A stretch of 64,000 nucleotides of DNA from an uncultured Lachnospiraceae bacterium (GTDB lineage Bacteria > Bacillota > Clostridia > Lachnospirales > Lachnospiraceae): assembly GCA_934899185.1 (NCBI GenBank), contig CAKXYI010000001.1, forward strand, positions 62,001 through 126,000. Reading direction: 5' to 3'. Under the pieces are notes generated by a model, which was given only the letters and a program-made list of their open reading frames with translations, was not told the origin of the DNA and searched no databases. Below, one piece after another: positions 19,359-54,772 of the stretch. A program made the translations under genes and the position numbers. Every line of letters starts with the position of its first letter. The stretch's first letter is position 1.

Positions 19359-20867
19359 TTATCCTAATATAATTTCTTTGACATCACATTTGCCCCCGCC
19401 TACATAGATAAAGAACAGACCGTATTCTTTCTCTGATAGCGTGACCGGCATCTCAAAAGTCTGCCAATCTTTGGATGCTTGCAGAACGATCGTTGCAATA
19501 ACCTTTCCCTTCTCTTTTGTACGTATTTCTATCTTTCCTCTGGCTTTTCCACGCACAGTAATACCGATATAACTAAGATCTTTTACCGCAAAATACTTAA
19601 ATCCCATGGTCATATTGTGCTTAAAATTCGTTACATACTGATATGGTGGCTTTCCTGCATCTTCCGGGTCGTAATCAGCCCCGGACTGGGTGATATATGC
19701 ATAACGATTTCCCATGGCAAGCCGATTGGACCAGGTCGATCCCGCCTTTCCATATAAATTGCAACATATGCTCGCCGGATAAACTCCCTTTTTCAAAAAG
19801 GCATGTCCCAATAACCCCTGAGAAGTCAGATGCACCTGTGGAATGGATCCGTCCGCTAAAATTTGGATTTCTTCTGCACATCCCTGTCTGGAAAAGCAAG
19901 TACGGTTGGTCTGTCTGTGATAAAAAATATAATATTTTCCATTGACACACTCAATGCCTCCATGATTGTTGCCAAAGATACATTTTCCATCTTTTAGCGT
20001 CTGTCCTTCAAAAACATCTGCGTTACTGATAATCACTCCACCGTAAGTCCATCCCCCATCCGGTCTGTTACTGATAGCATAACACAGTTCATGGCAACTA
20101 ACGGATGAGTAGACCAGATAATATTTATCTCCAATCTTTCGGATAGAACTTGCCTCAAAAAATTCATGTCCTTCCATGGGCGTTCCTTTTACAATGTTTG
20201 GCAGGATACGCTTGGGCTGGCTGATGACCGTCAGCATATCATCCGCCAAGGTGGCGGTTATGGCTCCGGCGATGGCTCCTTTTTCTTTTTTCACTTCCTC
20301 ATAAGTCTTGCCATAGGTCTTTGCCATGATGCGATACATCATGCCGCGGTTCAAAAAATTGATGTGTTCCTCAAATGGGATCAGCGCACCATAATATAGA
20401 CGGATGATGCCTTCATCATTGATAACTGCCGGATCAAAAAGTGCATATTTTTCAAATAGGCTTCCATCCGCATTTTTTACATCCCCATAATAGGTAAAGG
20501 GTCCTCCCGGCTCGTCGGCTACCGCCACACTGATGGGTCCGTCATAGCCGCCCTTTCCCTGTGCTCCTGACAAGCAGTAATACATATAATATCTTCCATC
20601 ATTTCCCTGCACCACATCCGGCGCATACATCTGCTGCCGGGTCTCGCTCGCATACGGATCCTGTGCGACACGATAACTGATCCCATGCGATTTCCAATTA
20701 CCCAGATCATGGATCGGTGCCGAAAAGACTTCGTAGGGATCCATGCAATAGGTATCGCCACCCTCTCTATCATGGGATCCATAGACATACAGACGGTCAC
20801 CAAATACATGGGGTTCACCATCCGGTATGTAGGTATCCAGTGACAAATATGGATTCATTGCCTGCAT
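19359..20867 (-). CDS. GH43 beta-xylosidase / alpha-L-arabinofuranosidase with CBM6-like tail
   Basis: A 502-residue enzyme with a five-bladed propeller of GH43 type. The general base Asp lies in TYIPDGEPHVF (about residue 16), a pKa-tuning Asp in ALFDPAV and the acid Glu in EFFEASSI. The last 130 residues (from about 370) look like a CBM6-type sugar-binding domain. No signal peptide is present. The frame is open 120 bases further, but AAGGAGGA stands before the ATG at 20867 and the extension crosses a terminator-like hairpin, so 20867 is the start. A decayed near-copy of its 5' end is at 12717-12821. The AraC gene behind it in the same direction may regulate it. Confidence 0.9.
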   Translation of the reverse strand: MQAMNPYLSLDTYIPDGEPHVFGDRLYVYGSHDREGGDTYCMDPYEVFSAPIHDLGNWKSHGISYRVAQDPYASETRQQMYAPDVVQGNDGRYYMYYCLSGAQGKGGYDGPISVAVADEPGGPFTYYGDVKNADGSLFEKYALFDPAVINDEGIIRLYYGALIPFEEHINFLNRGMMYRIMAKTYGKTYEEVKKEKGAIAGAITATLADDMLTVISQPKRILPNIVKGTPMEGHEFFEASSIRKIGDKYYLVYSSVSCHELCYAISNRPDGGWTYGGVIISNADVFEGQTLKDGKCIFGNNHGGIECVNGKYYIFYHRQTNRTCFSRQGCAEEIQILADGSIPQVHLTSQGLLGHAFLKKGVYPASICCNLYGKAGSTWSNRLAMGNRYAYITQSGADYDPEDAGKPPYQYVTNFKHNMTMGFKYFAVKDLSYIGITVRGKARGKIEIRTKEKGKVIATIVLQASKDWQTFEMPVTLSEKEYGLFFIYVGGGKCDVKEIILG

Positions 20868-20914
20868 ATATCTTCCTCCTTCTTCTATTTTGGTATTTCC
20901 TTTGCTGTATAAAG

Positions 20915-20951
20915 AAACCCTATCCTTAGGTCTTACTATAGGATAGGGTTT
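20915..20951. terminator. Hairpin between AraC gene and GH43
   Basis: AAACCCTATCCT (20915-20926) pairs with AGGATAGGGTTT (20940-20951). It lies 32 bases after the AraC stop and 48 bases before the GH43 start on the minus strand. It is probably a terminator or attenuator; an operator is possible because the arms are exact. Confidence 0.6.
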
Positions 20952-20983
20952 CGTATAAAAATATAAAATTATGATACATTTTA

Positions 20984-21778
20984 TCAAATTTCTGAACCAA
21001 GATACGATTGACCGGATTGACTGATGGTATAGCCTTCCGAAAATTGAATGGGCTGATTATCCTTTCGATACTGCAAAGGTGTCATACCGTAGGCGCACTT
21101 AAAGGCGGCACTCATATGACTCTGGAAATCAAAGCCCAGATATGCCGCTACATCCCCGATCTTTGCCTCAGAATATTTGATGATATTAACTGCTGCAATG
21201 AGTTTCTGCTCCAGCACATACTGATACACTGTGATGCCCTCTGCTTTTTTAAATTCTCTTTCCAAATGAGCCAGACTAATGTCCAGTTCTTCCGCGATCT
21301 CCTGCGCCGTCAATTTTCTGGTACGGTTTTTTGCAACGTATTCCTTGCAGCGTTCCACATAGTTCCAGCGATTGGTATGCTTTTTGCGTAAGTCACACAC
21401 GGCAAGACTATAGTCCCGCAGGGCTTTCTCATAGACTGACAGCATCTCCTTTATGCTTTTGCACTCCATCAATTCCTGTTGGAAAGACACCTCTCTGGCA
21501 AAGGCATCAAACTCGCTGACTCCGCCCCGGATTGCCGCACGACAGGCAAGTCCTGCGGATGCTACAATGGCGTATTCCCACTGCCTGTATTCTTTGCTTG
21601 CCACAAGACTGCCCAATGCTACCTGCTCGTATAGATTTCTTGGAATGACATCCGTCTTGTGTAAATGCAACGTACCTTCCTCGATCCAGCGCAGCCATTT
21701 TAATTCTTCCTGATAGGATGGCACCGGGATGTCGGCATCGCCTATTTGTATGGATTGATAGTTGTTTTTTCTTTTCAT
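20984..21778 (-). CDS. AraC-family regulator with short N-terminal domain
   Basis: A 264-residue regulator. The C-terminal helix-turn-helix pair is at about 155-250 (LTAQEIAEELDISLAHLERE, ending CAYGMTPLQYRKDN). The middle part (AIVASAGLACRAAIRGGVSE) resembles the same block in the AraC paralogues at 33364 and 34621 (CIRAAIEGGIS; LECRAAIDAG). It therefore seems to belong to the same group but lacks their first 150 or so residues. It lies directly upstream of GH43 in the same direction and 12 bp after the end of Rpn copy 2. The regulatory target is probably the neighbouring glycosidase genes. Confidence 0.85.
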   Translation of the reverse strand: MKRKNNYQSIQIGDADIPVPSYQEELKWLRWIEEGTLHLHKTDVIPRNLYEQVALGSLVASKEYRQWEYAIVASAGLACRAAIRGGVSEFDAFAREVSFQQELMECKSIKEMLSVYEKALRDYSLAVCDLRKKHTNRWNYVERCKEYVAKNRTRKLTAQEIAEELDISLAHLEREFKKAEGITVYQYVLEQKLIAAVNIIKYSEAKIGDVAAYLGFDFQSHMSAAFKCAYGMTPLQYRKDNQPIQFSEGYTISQSGQSYLGSEI

Positions 21779-36038: not shown

Positions 36039-36118
36039 TACGGGCAACAGGACTTGAACCTGCACGGTCTCCCACTAGAACCTAAATCTAGCGCGTCTGC
36101 CAATTCCGCCACGCCCGC
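36039..36118 (-). tRNA. tRNA-Leu (anticodon TAG)
   Basis: An 80-base cloverleaf on the minus strand. The acceptor GCGGGCG pairs with TGCCCGT (two G-T pairs), the D arm is GCG-AATTGGCAGA-CGC, the anticodon stem CTAGA/TCTAG has loop TTTAGGT (anticodon TAG), and the T arm has loop TTCAAGT. An extended variable arm typical of tRNA-Leu is present. CCA is not encoded. Confidence 0.95.
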
Positions 36119-37146: not shown

Positions 37147-37177
37147 GGGACACTCCTTGTAGCAAAAGGAACGTCCC
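37147..37177 (-). repeat. 31-nt REP-like palindromic repeat, copy B
   Basis: On the minus strand this reads GGGACGTTCC, TTTTGCTACA, AGGAGTGTCCC. It starts at the last base of the stop codon of the Mrp-type gene (TAG followed by GGACG). It differs from copy A by two bases. No T-run follows, so it is not a plain terminator. Confidence 0.7.
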
Positions 37178-38025
37178 TAACGTAAGTTCTCCAGAACTGT
37201 CTTAGCCTCTGTCAAATAGTCATTCTCTACTGCGTAGATTTCACCTGCGTCTGCTGCCTTGGCAAATTTCTGATCCATTGGAAGCTTACCGAGGACAGAG
37301 ATACCGAGTTCTTTTGCAACATCCTCAATATGACTATCGCCATAAATATGAATCTCTTCATCGCAGTTTGGACATTTTACATAGCTGTAGTTTTCAACAA
37401 CACCAAGTACCGGAACGTCCATCATTCCTGCCATGTTGTAAGCTTTCTTTACAATCATCTGTACCAATTCCTGTGGAGATGTCACAATCACAATACCATC
37501 TACTGGAAGTGACTGGAATACCGTAAGCGGAACATCACCTGTTCCAGGTGGCATATCAACAAATAAATAGTCCACATCGCCCCACTGTACATCTGTCCAG
37601 AACTGCTTTACTGCACCAGCAATAACAGGGCCTCTCCAGATTACCGGCTGTTCCTCATCCTCTAAAAGAAGATTAATAGACATAATCTTTGTTCCATCTT
37701 CTGCTTCGATTGGGAATGTACCATTATCATCACCAACGGCCGGACCGTGTACACCAAACATCTTTGGAATTGATGGACCTGTGATATCCGCATCCAAAAT
37801 TCCCACCTTATATCCTGCTTTTGCCATCATAGATGCCAGTGAAGATGTCACAAATGATTTACCTACGCCACCTTTACCACTGACAATACCAATTACATGT
37901 TTAATACGTGCATTTGGGTTTGTTTCTACCTCAAATGGATTTTTTTTGTTTGCTGATGCACAGCCGGCACAGCTTTCTTTTGAACAAGTAGATGCACTAG
38001 CGCATCCTTTCTTTTCTTCTGCCAT
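37177..38025 (-). CDS. Mrp/NBP35-type P-loop Fe-S cluster carrier
   Basis: A 282-residue ATPase of the Mrp/ApbC family that binds and hands over 4Fe-4S clusters. The N terminus is Cys-rich (GCASASTCSKESCAGCAS). The deviant Walker A motif SGKGGVGKS is at about 49-57, switch DADITGPSIPKMFG follows, and the bridging-cluster motif CPNCDE lies at about 220. These are all diagnostic. It lies 19 bp behind mtnA and probably shares its transcript. A REP-like repeat begins exactly at the stop codon. The start MAEEKKG has GGGAGGAAAT upstream. Confidence 0.93.
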   Translation of the reverse strand: MAEEKKGCASASTCSKESCAGCASANKKNPFEVETNPNARIKHVIGIVSGKGGVGKSFVTSSLASMMAKAGYKVGILDADITGPSIPKMFGVHGPAVGDDNGTFPIEAEDGTKIMSINLLLEDEEQPVIWRGPVIAGAVKQFWTDVQWGDVDYLFVDMPPGTGDVPLTVFQSLPVDGIVIVTSPQELVQMIVKKAYNMAGMMDVPVLGVVENYSYVKCPNCDEEIHIYGDSHIEDVAKELGISVLGKLPMDQKFAKAADAGEIYAVENDYLTEAKTVLENLR

Positions 38026-38044: not shown

Positions 38045-39124
38045 TTATACGCGTTTTTGCTTATTATCCATAATTGCTTTTAAAGACTCTGTATACGGAG
38101 CTCGTGCAACCCCATATTCTGTCACAATGCCTGCAATCAATTCATGGTCTGTCACATCGAATGCCGGATTAAAGATTTTAACATTTTCCGGTGCCATACG
38201 CTTTTCAAACCACATTTCTGCTATTTCTTCCGGTTTACGTTCTTCAATGACAATATCATCTCCCGTGGCGGTTGCCATATCAATCGTAGATGTCGGTGCG
38301 CAAATATATACCGGAACATTGTACTGCTTAGCCACAGCGGCAACAACAGATGTACCAATTTTGTTTGCTGTGTCACCGTTGGCTGCGACACGGTCACACC
38401 CTACAAATACAGCATTCACCCAGCCGTTTTTCATAACCATTGCTGACATATTATCACAAATCAGTGTCGTATCCACACCAGATTCCTGCAATTCAAATGC
38501 CGTCAAGCGTGCCCCTTGTAAAAGAGGTCTTGTTTCATCGCAAAATACATGCAAATGATAATCATTTTCTTCTGCCAGATAAATTGGTGCCGTTGCCGTA
38601 CCATAACGTACTGCGGCAAGTTTTCCTGCATTACAGTGTGTCAGGATGCCATCGCCCGGCTTAAGCAATTCCATACCGTACTCGCCGATCTTTCGACATA
38701 CCGCAATATCCTCGTCACGAATGACCATTGCCTCCTGATGCAGTGCCTCGACGATAGCCGGAATAGTCTCATTTGCATGGGATGTTACCACACCTTCCAT
38801 ACGCTTTAGCGCCCAAGATAGATTAACTGCTGTCGGTCTGGATGAATCAAGATATTCCTTGTCCCGACAAAATGCAGCATAAAATGCAGCATAGTCACCC
38901 GACTCATAACGCGACGCCAAGACGTACATACCAATGGCTGCCGCAACTCCGATCGCCGGTGCCCCCCTTACCTTTAAAAGATAAATCGCATCCCAGATCT
39001 CTTTTGCCTTTGTCAGCGAAAGCATCTGGATCTGCCCCGGCAGTTTGGTCTGGTCGATAATGACAAGCGCCTTATTTTCCTCATCCAGTGAGACTGTATC
39101 GATTTCTGTAATTTTACCACCCAT
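38045..39124 (-). CDS. mtnA: S-methyl-5-thioribose-1-phosphate isomerase
   Basis: A 359-residue MtnA protein of the eIF2B-like fold, converting methylthioribose-1-phosphate to methylthioribulose-1-phosphate in the methionine salvage route. Key blocks are KVRGAPAIGVAAA (about 50-62), GILTHCNAGKLAAVRYGTAT with the catalytic Cys, and VFVGCDRVAANGDTANKIGT with the catalytic Asp. The frame is open for 90 more codons, but these run into the palindromic element; GGGGGAT before the ATG at 39124 (MGGKITEID) fixes the start. Partners of the salvage route are not in the window, so aldehyde-linked roles of MtnA in anaerobes (dihydroxyacetone phosphate shunt) are possible. Confidence 0.93.
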   Translation of the reverse strand: MGGKITEIDTVSLDEENKALVIIDQTKLPGQIQMLSLTKAKEIWDAIYLLKVRGAPAIGVAAAIGMYVLASRYESGDYAAFYAAFCRDKEYLDSSRPTAVNLSWALKRMEGVVTSHANETIPAIVEALHQEAMVIRDEDIAVCRKIGEYGMELLKPGDGILTHCNAGKLAAVRYGTATAPIYLAEENDYHLHVFCDETRPLLQGARLTAFELQESGVDTTLICDNMSAMVMKNGWVNAVFVGCDRVAANGDTANKIGTSVVAAVAKQYNVPVYICAPTSTIDMATATGDDIVIEERKPEEIAEMWFEKRMAPENVKIFNPAFDVTDHELIAGIVTEYGVARAPYTESLKAIMDNKQKRV

Positions 39125-39218
39125 CTCATTTATCCCCCTATTATTTTCAACACCTATATTGTACTGAATTTCCCCGGAATATACAAATGTGTTCCTCGGA
39201 AAGTGCAAGTTTGCCACA

Positions 39219-39817
39219 GGGACGTTCCTTTTGCCACAGGGACTGTCCCCTTTGGCTTGTCGGCTCTTACATGTATGGGCTGGCACAGATGGAAAGTGCG
39301 GGAGGAGGCAGAGACAGGGCAGAGAAACTTTGGAGCAGGTTAGGTGAGTCTCTACAAGAAATCTTTTTCTTTTAATAAAGTGTCTCTTGCACAACTTCGA
39401 CTGCCGTCAGGATGTGTCCGCCGCTGGCAGATATTCAGGGGCGCCACTTATAAGAGATGCTAAGGACTGGGAATTTTGCTTATCATCAGTCAGTGGCAAC
39501 CGGTGCAAACGAACATCCGTGTGCGGTTGCGCCTCTCGGGTACGTCCCTGTACCCGAGTTGCCTGCTCATGCACAAGTCCTAAGCATCTCTAATACGTTT
39601 TGCATTCATATCTGCCAGCGGCGAACATCATCCCAGACGGTTGTCGAACTTTGCAAAGACAGTTTTTATCGCAAAAGAAAAAGTTTCTCGTCAAGAGACT
39701 CCCTGTTCTGCGACAGTTACCTCGCCCTGTCTCTGCCTCCTCCCGCACTTCCCATCTGCGCCTGCCCTGCCTATCCTCTGCCAAATGGGACAGTCCATGT
39801 GGCAAAAGGAACGTCCC
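39219..39817. repeat. 599-bp imperfect palindrome with 31-nt ends (MITE-like element or structured RNA)
   Basis: The left arm (39219 to about 39470) is matched in reverse complement by the right arm (about 39570 to 39817). The ends are the 31-nt repeat GGGACGTTCC...GTCCC (copies C and D). Long matches include GTGCGGGAGGAGGCAGAGAC on the left with its complement in the right arm, CGCCGCTGGCAGATAT, and AGAGATGCT[A/T]AGGACT. The centre holds the hairpins GCAACCG...CGGTTGC and CTCGGGTA...TACCCGAG. Blocks of match alternate with unmatched blocks, like stems and internal loops. There is no convincing coding frame; frames crossing it are by-products of the symmetry. It lies between divergent mtnA and the end of the convergent etfA. 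Confidence 0.85.
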
Positions 39818-39823
39818 TAACGC

Positions 39824-39857
39824 AAAGACGAGCCGATCCTGCGATCGACTCGTCTTT
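39824..39857. terminator. Terminator between the palindrome and etfA
   Basis: AAAGACGAG-CCGATC-CTGC-GATCG-A-CTCGTCTTT forms a long stem. The plus strand has TTTTG after it, so it could end a rightward transcript from the palindrome. It may also end the leftward butyrate operon, although the T-run on that side is short. Confidence 0.7.
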
Positions 39858-39887
39858 TGAAAATAAGAAATGATGGGAAAGCAATTA

Positions 39888-40940
39888 TTATGCTAATTCA
39901 GCCTTTAAAGCCTCTGTCAGCGCTGGTACGATCTTCTTGAGATCGCCGACAATACCATAGTCAGCAACATCAAAGATCGGTGCATCTGCATCTTTATTGA
40001 TTGCAATAATGATGTCGGATTCTTCCATGCCGGCAACATGCTGGATTGCTCCGGAAATACCGATTGCAAAATATACATTCGGACGAACCGTCTTTCCTGT
40101 CTGTCCTACCTGATAATCCTGTGCTAACCAGCCATTTTCAACAACGGCACGGGAGCAGGATACCATACCACCAAGAACATCTGCCAGATCCTTTAACATC
40201 TGGAAGTTCTCAGCGCTGCCAACACCACGTCCGCCGGATACTAAGATCTTGGCATCCATGATATTTTCAACGGTTCCAACTGCCTTTACAATATCCTGGA
40301 TCTCAACGTACTTGTTGTTCTTGGTAAATCCAGGGTTGTAATTGATAACTTCTGCCTTGGCACCCTTAACTGGTGTAATCTTCTGCATAACACCAGGACG
40401 AACGGTTGCCATCTGTGGACGATTGTCCGGGCAGGCGATCGTTGCGATCGTATTTCCACCAAATGCAGGTCTTGTCATAAGTAACTGACCATGCTTTTGT
40501 GTATCCTCTTTTCCTTCCGGAACAGAAAGTGGGAAGTCACCGATCTCAAGCATGGTACAGTCTGCGGTAAGACCTGTCTTTACTCTTGCTGAAACGGTAG
40601 GTCCCAGATCACGTCCGATGGCGGTTGCACCAACCAACATGATCTCCGGCTTATACTCATTGATAACAGAAGCAAGTGCATGAGCATATGGTTCTGTTCT
40701 GTATGTTTCAAGTTCCGGATCATCTACAACGATTACCTTGTCTGCGCCATACTCAGCCAAAGAATCAACGAGATTTCCTACATTGTGTCCCAAAAGAACT
40801 GCCGTTACATCTGTTCCAAGATCAGCAGCCAGTTCTTTTGCCTTTCCGATCAATTCAAAGGCAATGGAACTAATTTCATTATCTACCTGTTGTGCGTAAA
40901 TAAATACGCCCTTATATTCTTCTAATGCCATTTTATTCAC
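39888..40940 (-). CDS. etfA: Electron transfer flavoprotein alpha subunit
   Basis: A 350-residue EtfA. The N-terminal domain pairs with EtfB, and the C-terminal FAD domain shows [42 protein letters not shown] and [15 protein letters not shown]. With EtfB and butyryl-CoA dehydrogenase it forms the complex that couples crotonyl-CoA reduction to ferredoxin reduction (electron bifurcation) in butyrate producers. It is the last gene of the operon, 15 bp behind etfB. It has no extra N-terminal ferredoxin domain. Confidence 0.97.
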
Positions 40941-54699: not shown

Positions 54700-54772
54700 A
54701 GCGACAGACGGGACTCGAACCCGCGACTTCCTCCTTGGCAAGGAGGTGCTCTACCAACTGAGCCACTGTCGC
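54700..54772 (-). tRNA. tRNA-Gly (anticodon GCC)
   Basis: A 73-base cloverleaf on the minus strand. The acceptor GCGACAG pairs with CTGTCGC, the D arm is GCTC/GAGC, the anticodon stem is CCTCC/GGAGG with loop TTGCCAA (anticodon GCC), and the T arm is GCGGG-TTCGAGT-CCCGT. CCA is not encoded. Confidence 0.96.

Follow-up and report, generated by a model that had tools for sequence, protein, structure and literature searches.

The window analysed here is a stretch of 64,000 nucleotides from an uncultured Lachnospiraceae bacterium. In it, a gap of 763 bp (39125-39887) separates an mtnA-type gene (S-methyl-5-thioribose-1-phosphate isomerase; 38045-39124) from an etfA-type gene (electron transfer flavoprotein alpha; 39888-40940, the listed matches all falling below curated cut-offs). 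Both genes are on the minus strand, as is a match to the Rfam family RF01731 (TwoAYGGAY); in the sense direction of this match, the etfA-type gene comes before it and the mtnA-type gene comes next. Most of the gap is filled by a 617-bp palindrome at 39210-39826, a whole long-armed TwoAYGGAY element on the minus strand. A preliminary description of this DNA had reported a large imperfect palindrome with block-wise arms in a gene-free intergenic region; this was correct, and the span that it gave (39219-39817) extends outwards to 39210-39826. Inverted-repeat matching delimits a left arm at 39210-39438, corresponding to the 3' arm of a minus-strand RNA, and a right arm at 39606-39826, corresponding to its 5' arm. 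Pairing occurs in blocks that are 89% (39210-39256 with 39780-39826), 87% (39277-39329 with 39715-39767), 95% (39415-39434 with 39608-39627) and 87% (39446-39468 with 39576-39598) complementary, and unmatched blocks lie between them. The palindrome score of 39210-39826 was 121, compared with 19.8 for the best among 413 other stretches of the window. Folding of the minus strand (39205-39830) gave -374.5 kcal/mol, whereas 20 shuffles averaged -200.4 (sd 9.3), a z-score of -18.7; for the plus strand the z-score was -17.1. The palindrome is genuine; chance would not come close to producing it.

A terminator-like hairpin (39824-39857), detected by inverted-repeat search, sits at the element's right-hand boundary, beside the etfA-type gene. 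The terminator noted earlier after the right end is present in this form but, on the minus strand, precedes the element. No sigma-70-like promoter was seen in 39100-39950. By eye, the flanks outside 39210-39826 carry no flush direct repeat; a target-site duplication of this copy could have decayed. A BLAST search for the element in 80 mtnA neighbourhoods gave no match and, because the closest mtnA is only 81% identical, these loci offer no clean empty site for the window copy. Carriage of the element on a plasmid was rejected, there being no plasmid match. The same Rfam scan of the window recorded two tRNA genes on the minus strand (36039-36118 and 54700-54772).

The centre of the palindrome, for which an Rfam search had been proposed, is a full-length TwoAYGGAY core (39439-39605, minus strand; 80.7 bits against a gathering threshold of 43, model positions 1-168). 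As this distinct 167-nt core separates the arms, the suggestion of two head-to-head copies is unsupported. Both of the central hairpins described previously are present, each with a GGA in its loop as judged from the sequence and the RF01731 alignment: in sense orientation on the minus strand, the first reads CTCGGGTACAGGGACGTACCCGAG (39535-39558) and the second GCAACCG...ACACGGATGT...CGGTTGC (39496-39530). An Rfam scan of Escherichia coli csrB returns clan CL00106, which is also the clan of RF01731; Rfam thus already groups TwoAYGGAY with CsrB. Among 111 copies, a non-random sample taken from the best RF01731 matches listed across genomes, GGA is retained in the first loop of 98 and the second loop of 103, and is missing from 13 first and 8 second loops. 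First loops without GGA are mostly CGA (e.g., CACGATG), a change expected to abolish the CsrA site in that loop. Loop 1 is usually CANGGATG, closed by a C-G pair in 111/111 copies with an A-T pair below it in 82/111, and its CsrA-type context ACANGGATGT is usually kept, on one strand. This loop resembles the SELEX consensus for CsrA. The TwoAYGGAY motif was reportedly first described in 2010.

A repeat search located a terminal repeat, AGGGACGTTCCTTTTGCCACAGGGACTGTCCC, at 39218-39249 on the plus strand and its inverted counterpart at 39787-39818 on the minus strand. The 31-nt repeat is, as had been noticed, both terminal and dispersed; it also occurs alone, without a core, at 1270-1301 and 37147-37179, both on the minus strand. 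The repeat has TTAG or CACAG at its foot, not GTAG. Copies with these exact ends are scarce elsewhere: GGCAAAAGGAACGTCCCT, with one mismatch allowed, has a single match each in only 4 of 397 genomes, and the window terminal repeat gave 0 matches among viral contigs. By contrast, the same core on palindromic arms with other ends is common, so that the expectation of further copies held for the core and not for the ends.

Distribution and mobility of TwoAYGGAY elements

RF01731 was present in 64 of 397 Lachnospiraceae genomes, in 62 of them above the cut-off. A rescan of 38 positive genomes with laxer filters, in which up to 54 candidates per genome were scored and counts are therefore lower bounds, yielded at least 532 copies, with 1 to 50 per genome (median, 7) and 10 or more copies in at least 15 of the 38. 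Copies within co-directional gene pairs showed no preferred orientation (27 sense, 33 antisense), and copies lay more often between convergent (31) than between divergent genes (12). With genes called crudely as long open reading frames, the downstream gene was in sense for only 42 of 109 copies. Family-wide cis-regulation of a downstream gene was rejected on this count which, together with the lack of an orientation preference, leaves the 'cis-reg' label of Rfam unsupported. Inverted pairs of cores occur within about 1 kb of each other, and all eight among the matches listed point apart, with the minus-strand core on the left and the plus-strand core on the right (C68 of G007, C33 and C47 of G024, C123 of G052, C92 of G156, C152 of G376, C1 of G396 and C1 of G100). 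Carriage by phages was also rejected: six of seven 'phage' matches are unannotated fecal 'Bacteriophage sp.' records, and the four examined are titled UNVERIFIED. One or two cores were seen in the stretches examined of each of these four (MT835798, MT835487, MT835561 and MT835536; L346-L349); their open reading frames look chromosomal by eye, so the phage label may be wrong.

The ends of the element could be tested in one related genome, G189, and there the family is mobile. Six near-identical copies with unrelated flanks stop sharply at GATTCRGGTGTCAAAAGG. A terminal inverted repeat (TIR) pattern, allowing up to 3 mismatches, gave 39 and 43 matches in this genome compared with 1 and 0 for the reversed control, and 23 and 21 matches in G377 with none in the control. 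We examined 20 G189 elements, out of at most 39 TIR pairs: 11 are 310 to 314 bp long and all carry RF01731, and 9 are 73 to 159 bp long and lack it. Core-bearing and core-less elements have terminal inverted repeats and 7-bp target-site duplications in common. The duplications, often CTWATAG-like, are perfect in 8 of the 20 (5 core-bearing, 3 core-less), and flank identity at 7 bp averaged 0.779 compared with 0.515 after shuffling (maximum of 200 shuffles, 0.65), with no such signal at 3 to 6 or 8 to 11 bp. The ends accompanied by 7-bp duplications, which a DDE-type transposase would recognise, read GATTCRGGTGTCAAAA. The G189 TwoAYGGAY elements are MITEs. As no gene lies inside them, they would move in trans, and their TIRs and 7-bp duplications point to a DDE-type transposase, a type assigned from these features; no TIR pair was noticed around a transposase among the G189 matches listed. 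The core-less elements (L318, L320, L321, L326 and L330-L334) are likely to have arisen by internal deletion and to have kept the ability to move.

When 110 copies were scanned unaided, 9 of them, from 7 genomes, had a TIR directly abutting an exact 7-bp repeat; five shuffled controls gave none. One of these copies (L103) falls within the inner stem and must be regarded as doubtful. The same scan returned 66 copies at 4 bp, 13 at 6 bp and 12 at 5 bp, the last against 1 to 3 in controls, and 2 and 3 copies at 8 and 9 bp against none. Even lengths are inflated because palindromic words within paired stems mimic direct repeats, and only the 7-bp outcome was used. The earlier interpretation is partly supported: its guesses of a structured RNA and of a MITE-type element both apply to the family, which has a TwoAYGGAY centre recognised by Rfam and, in G189, TIRs with 7-bp duplications.

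A second genome, G005, contains 12 copies, which are long-armed like that in the window. Its terminal repeat, TAGGGACGGATACC, has 43 matches with at most one mismatch, and inverted pairs of it surround cores, core-deleted palindromes, a Y1_Tnp gene and ordinary genes. The proposal that the window element is the full-length parent of the 31-nt repeat is consequently unproven, since the analogous repeat flanks all of these. The Y1_Tnp gene is framed repeat to repeat at C7:18350-19468, and its product scores 74.8 bits with the RAYT model, for which the curated cut-off is 80. Three palindromes (L164, L168 and L176) look core-deleted with unchanged ends, RF01731 being absent from L164 and L168. Ordinary genes lie between inverted repeats at contig positions 18302-18879 (L175) and 20841-21418 (L166), one of them MIF-like by eye, an arrangement suggesting that a pair of repeats might enclose a single gene. 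Of 24 RF01731-positive genomes tested, Y1_Tnp turned up in 10 and not in the other 14. Mobilisation by RAYT throughout the family was rejected on these figures, and we retain this explanation for the long-armed branch, which likely uses or used REP/RAYT-type ends, the RAYT link coming from one genome.

Arm matching and covariation

Arms in G005 resemble each other within elements more than between them. In nine elements (of 12 repeat pairs, leaving aside L166 and L175, which contain genes, and L172, which is 115 bp long, as well as six cores without an exact repeat pair), the outer 120 nt of an element's own two arms are 90% alike, compared with 72% between elements. The best match of the left arm is its own right arm in 9/9 elements at 120 nt, 8/9 at 70 nt and 7/9 at 180 nt. 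This pattern fits a process in which, in folded DNA, one arm is copied from the other. Monttinen and Löytynoja (2022; PMC8794818) put forward arm-to-arm copying of this kind for RNA genes.

Stem covariation, which the preliminary description had suggested looking for, is present among the copies but is not RNA-like by its counts of G.U and A.C mismatches. The paired columns of 38 cores (the window and the first copy among the 111 from each of 37 genomes) hold 1136 Watson-Crick pairs, 19 G.U, 25 A.C and 85 others. In controls, thirty TPP riboswitches from RF01731-positive genomes have 36 G.U and 1 A.C, and thirty SRP RNAs have 208 G.U and 1 A.C. Where both neighbouring pairs are Watson-Crick, the ratios of Watson-Crick to G.U to A.C are 633:4:4 in the cores, 120:15:0 in TPP and 233:50:1 in SRP. 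RNA-type conservation, in which G.U is tolerated and A.C is not, was therefore not seen in the 38 cores (19:25). The arms outside the core behave similarly, with G.U:A.C counts of 81:64 in 13 copies from G005 and the window and 190:220 in 74 other copies (24 of the 111, whose arms do not exceed the 99% level of the null, are omitted). Sets of copies from within G005 (17:6) and within G189 (19:1) favour G.U, and the counts for three further genomes are 7:3 (G057), 4:3 (G369) and 3:1 (G254); such an excess in G005 and G189 can arise by descent because the copies are related, and for this reason we rely on the one-per-genome set. The consensus fold is stronger in antisense for the 111 cores and stronger in sense for the 38 one-per-genome cores and five within-genome sets. 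The near equality of A.C and G.U in the stems and the closeness of own arms in G005 suggest that arm correction at the DNA level, not selection on RNA alone, likely made the covariation. This symmetry does not exclude production of an RNA from the element.

Association with CsrA

CsrA (PF02599, above cut-off) was detected in 63 of 67 RF01731-positive and 44 of 93 negative genomes (Fisher p 8e-11, uncorrected for kinship and with the completeness of the genomes unstated), the negatives being genomes without a match under stricter filters plus G001 and G003. In the two batches, the positives gave 43/46 and 20/21 and the negatives 15/34 and 29/59. The four positives without a CsrA match are G007, G181, G331 and G369, the last of which has at least 15 copies. 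A number of genomes, such as G360 (6 matches), G057, G075 and G321, encode not only the usual CsrA but also a further CsrA-like protein that is more divergent (about 45 to 65 bits, often 90 to 130 aa). Binding of TwoAYGGAY by CsrA is an idea already published by Gardner and Eldai in 2014, who, in the accessible part of their paper, proposed it from motif matches (PMC4333381); the association test across genomes is new here.

Discussion

Our results describe the window element as a long palindrome built on a full-length TwoAYGGAY core. Whether it is, as we suspect, a non-autonomous mobile element and a transposable decoy for CsrA we regard as about evenly balanced. The family motif sits inside small mobile elements in a related bacterium, and from this we infer that the window copy was likely transposed too and that an enzyme encoded elsewhere moved it. 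It may belong to a long-armed branch in which the ends have turned into REP-like repeats. By analogy with CsrB/RsmY RNAs, the element would be transcribed and bound by CsrA: a minus-strand transcript would fold into a single hairpin, and a CsrA dimer could bind the two GGA loops at its tip in the way that it binds those RNAs, so that the RNA of the element is predicted to soak up this regulator. Complementarity of the arms is probably maintained in the DNA itself, either through template switching or through mismatch repair acting on folded single strands. For the family as a whole we offer, as possible rather than probable, the broader proposal that TwoAYGGAY is the cargo of selfish elements, a CsrA sponge spreading in Lachnospiraceae on ends of unrelated types (in one lineage TIRs of the DDE type, flanked by 7-bp duplications, and in another RAYT/REP-type ends), with covariation that stems from DNA template switching. 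If so, covariation, a well-known kind of evidence for functional RNA, would here be a product of what happens to a mobile palindrome as DNA.

Of the other explanations, a selfish palindrome acting purely at the DNA level survives best, although we consider it rather unlikely. The core would then be a folded single-stranded DNA signal, read by a recombinase or aiding replication, and never a functional RNA; kinship would account for the co-occurrence with CsrA. Mismatches that are symmetrical between strands in cores (19:25) and arms (81:64 and 190:220), the balance of 27 sense and 33 antisense copies in co-directional pairs, a consensus fold without a consistent strand preference, the homogenisation of palindromic arms in G005 and the lack of a visible promoter between 39100 and 39950 would all be expected of such an element. 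However, core-less derivatives spread or persist in both G189 and G005, which indicates that the core is unneeded for spread and is not a required transposition signal. Loop 1 usually retains ACANGGATGT on one strand, with the A-T pair in 82/111 copies, and CsrA is found in 63/67 positive but 44/93 negative genomes; both observations count against this explanation. It is also conceivable, but improbable, that the locus is a REP/BIME-type cluster in which repeats spread by RAYT were inserted to the left and right of an older TwoAYGGAY copy, as neighbours and not as ends of the element. Solo repeats in the window, the 43 pattern matches in G005 and the repeats on both sides of ordinary genes there (L166 and L175) agree with this, but the outer 120 nt, repeats included, match their own other arm best in all nine G005 elements, and core-deleted elements retain the same ends. 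Finally, an immobile, host-owned gene for a CsrB-like small RNA with ordinary paralogues, despite the published match to a CsrA-binding motif (PMC4333381, as far as its text was available), the clan in common with CsrB and the association with CsrA among genomes, is very improbable given up to at least 50 copies per genome, a patchy presence in 64/397 genomes and the near-identical G189 copies at unrelated sites, whose TIRs and 7-bp duplications already count against it.

The mobile palindrome that we favour accounts for the copy number and patchy spread of TwoAYGGAY and makes the CsrA idea testable: do mobile elements supply their cells with CsrA decoys in bulk? Comparing G.U with A.C counts costs little and could reveal further candidate RNAs in which covariation results from correction of DNA palindromes. 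In the literature searched, as far as its text was accessible, no proven function of TwoAYGGAY was found; among the listed papers naming the motif there was no link to transposition, the 2010 discovery supplement and most subscription papers lying outside this search. At the level of titles and abstracts, there was no report joining CsrA and MITEs, or on Lachnospiraceae palindromes or CsrA-binding RNAs in Firmicutes.

The element resembles several known systems, each in part. It shares with TwoAYGGAY (RF01731) a full-length core at 80.7 bits and two GGA loops, but Rfam models the 168-nt tip alone, which here sits atop a 617-bp palindrome, and labels it cis-regulatory, whereas copies of the family are scattered in the manner of a mobile element, with the downstream gene in sense for 42/109 of them. 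Like the CsrA-sequestering RNAs of the CsrB/RsmY type (CL00106), the window element and most copies carry GGA in hairpin loops; unlike them, it has two sites and not many, belongs to dispersed elements, has stems nearly without G.U and is only predicted to bind CsrA. Elements of the family are short and gene-free, with TIRs and a target duplication of fixed length in G189, as are bacterial MITEs, from which they differ in a conserved structured tip, in the long arms of G005 that are homogenised within each copy and in that a transposase was not found. The G005 repeat flanks a RAYT-like gene, and repeats are short palindromes outside genes, as in REP/REPIN and RAYT systems; yet the element is far longer, no GTAG was seen at the repeat foot, the RAYT score is just below the cut-off and Y1_Tnp was not found in 14/24 genomes. 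Lastly, the hairpins maintained by template switching (PMC8794818, in its available part) differ in that ours is a mobile palindrome, with the process deduced from G.U:A.C symmetry and not from ancestral reconstruction, but in both cases one arm would be copied from the other, which keeps the stems perfect.
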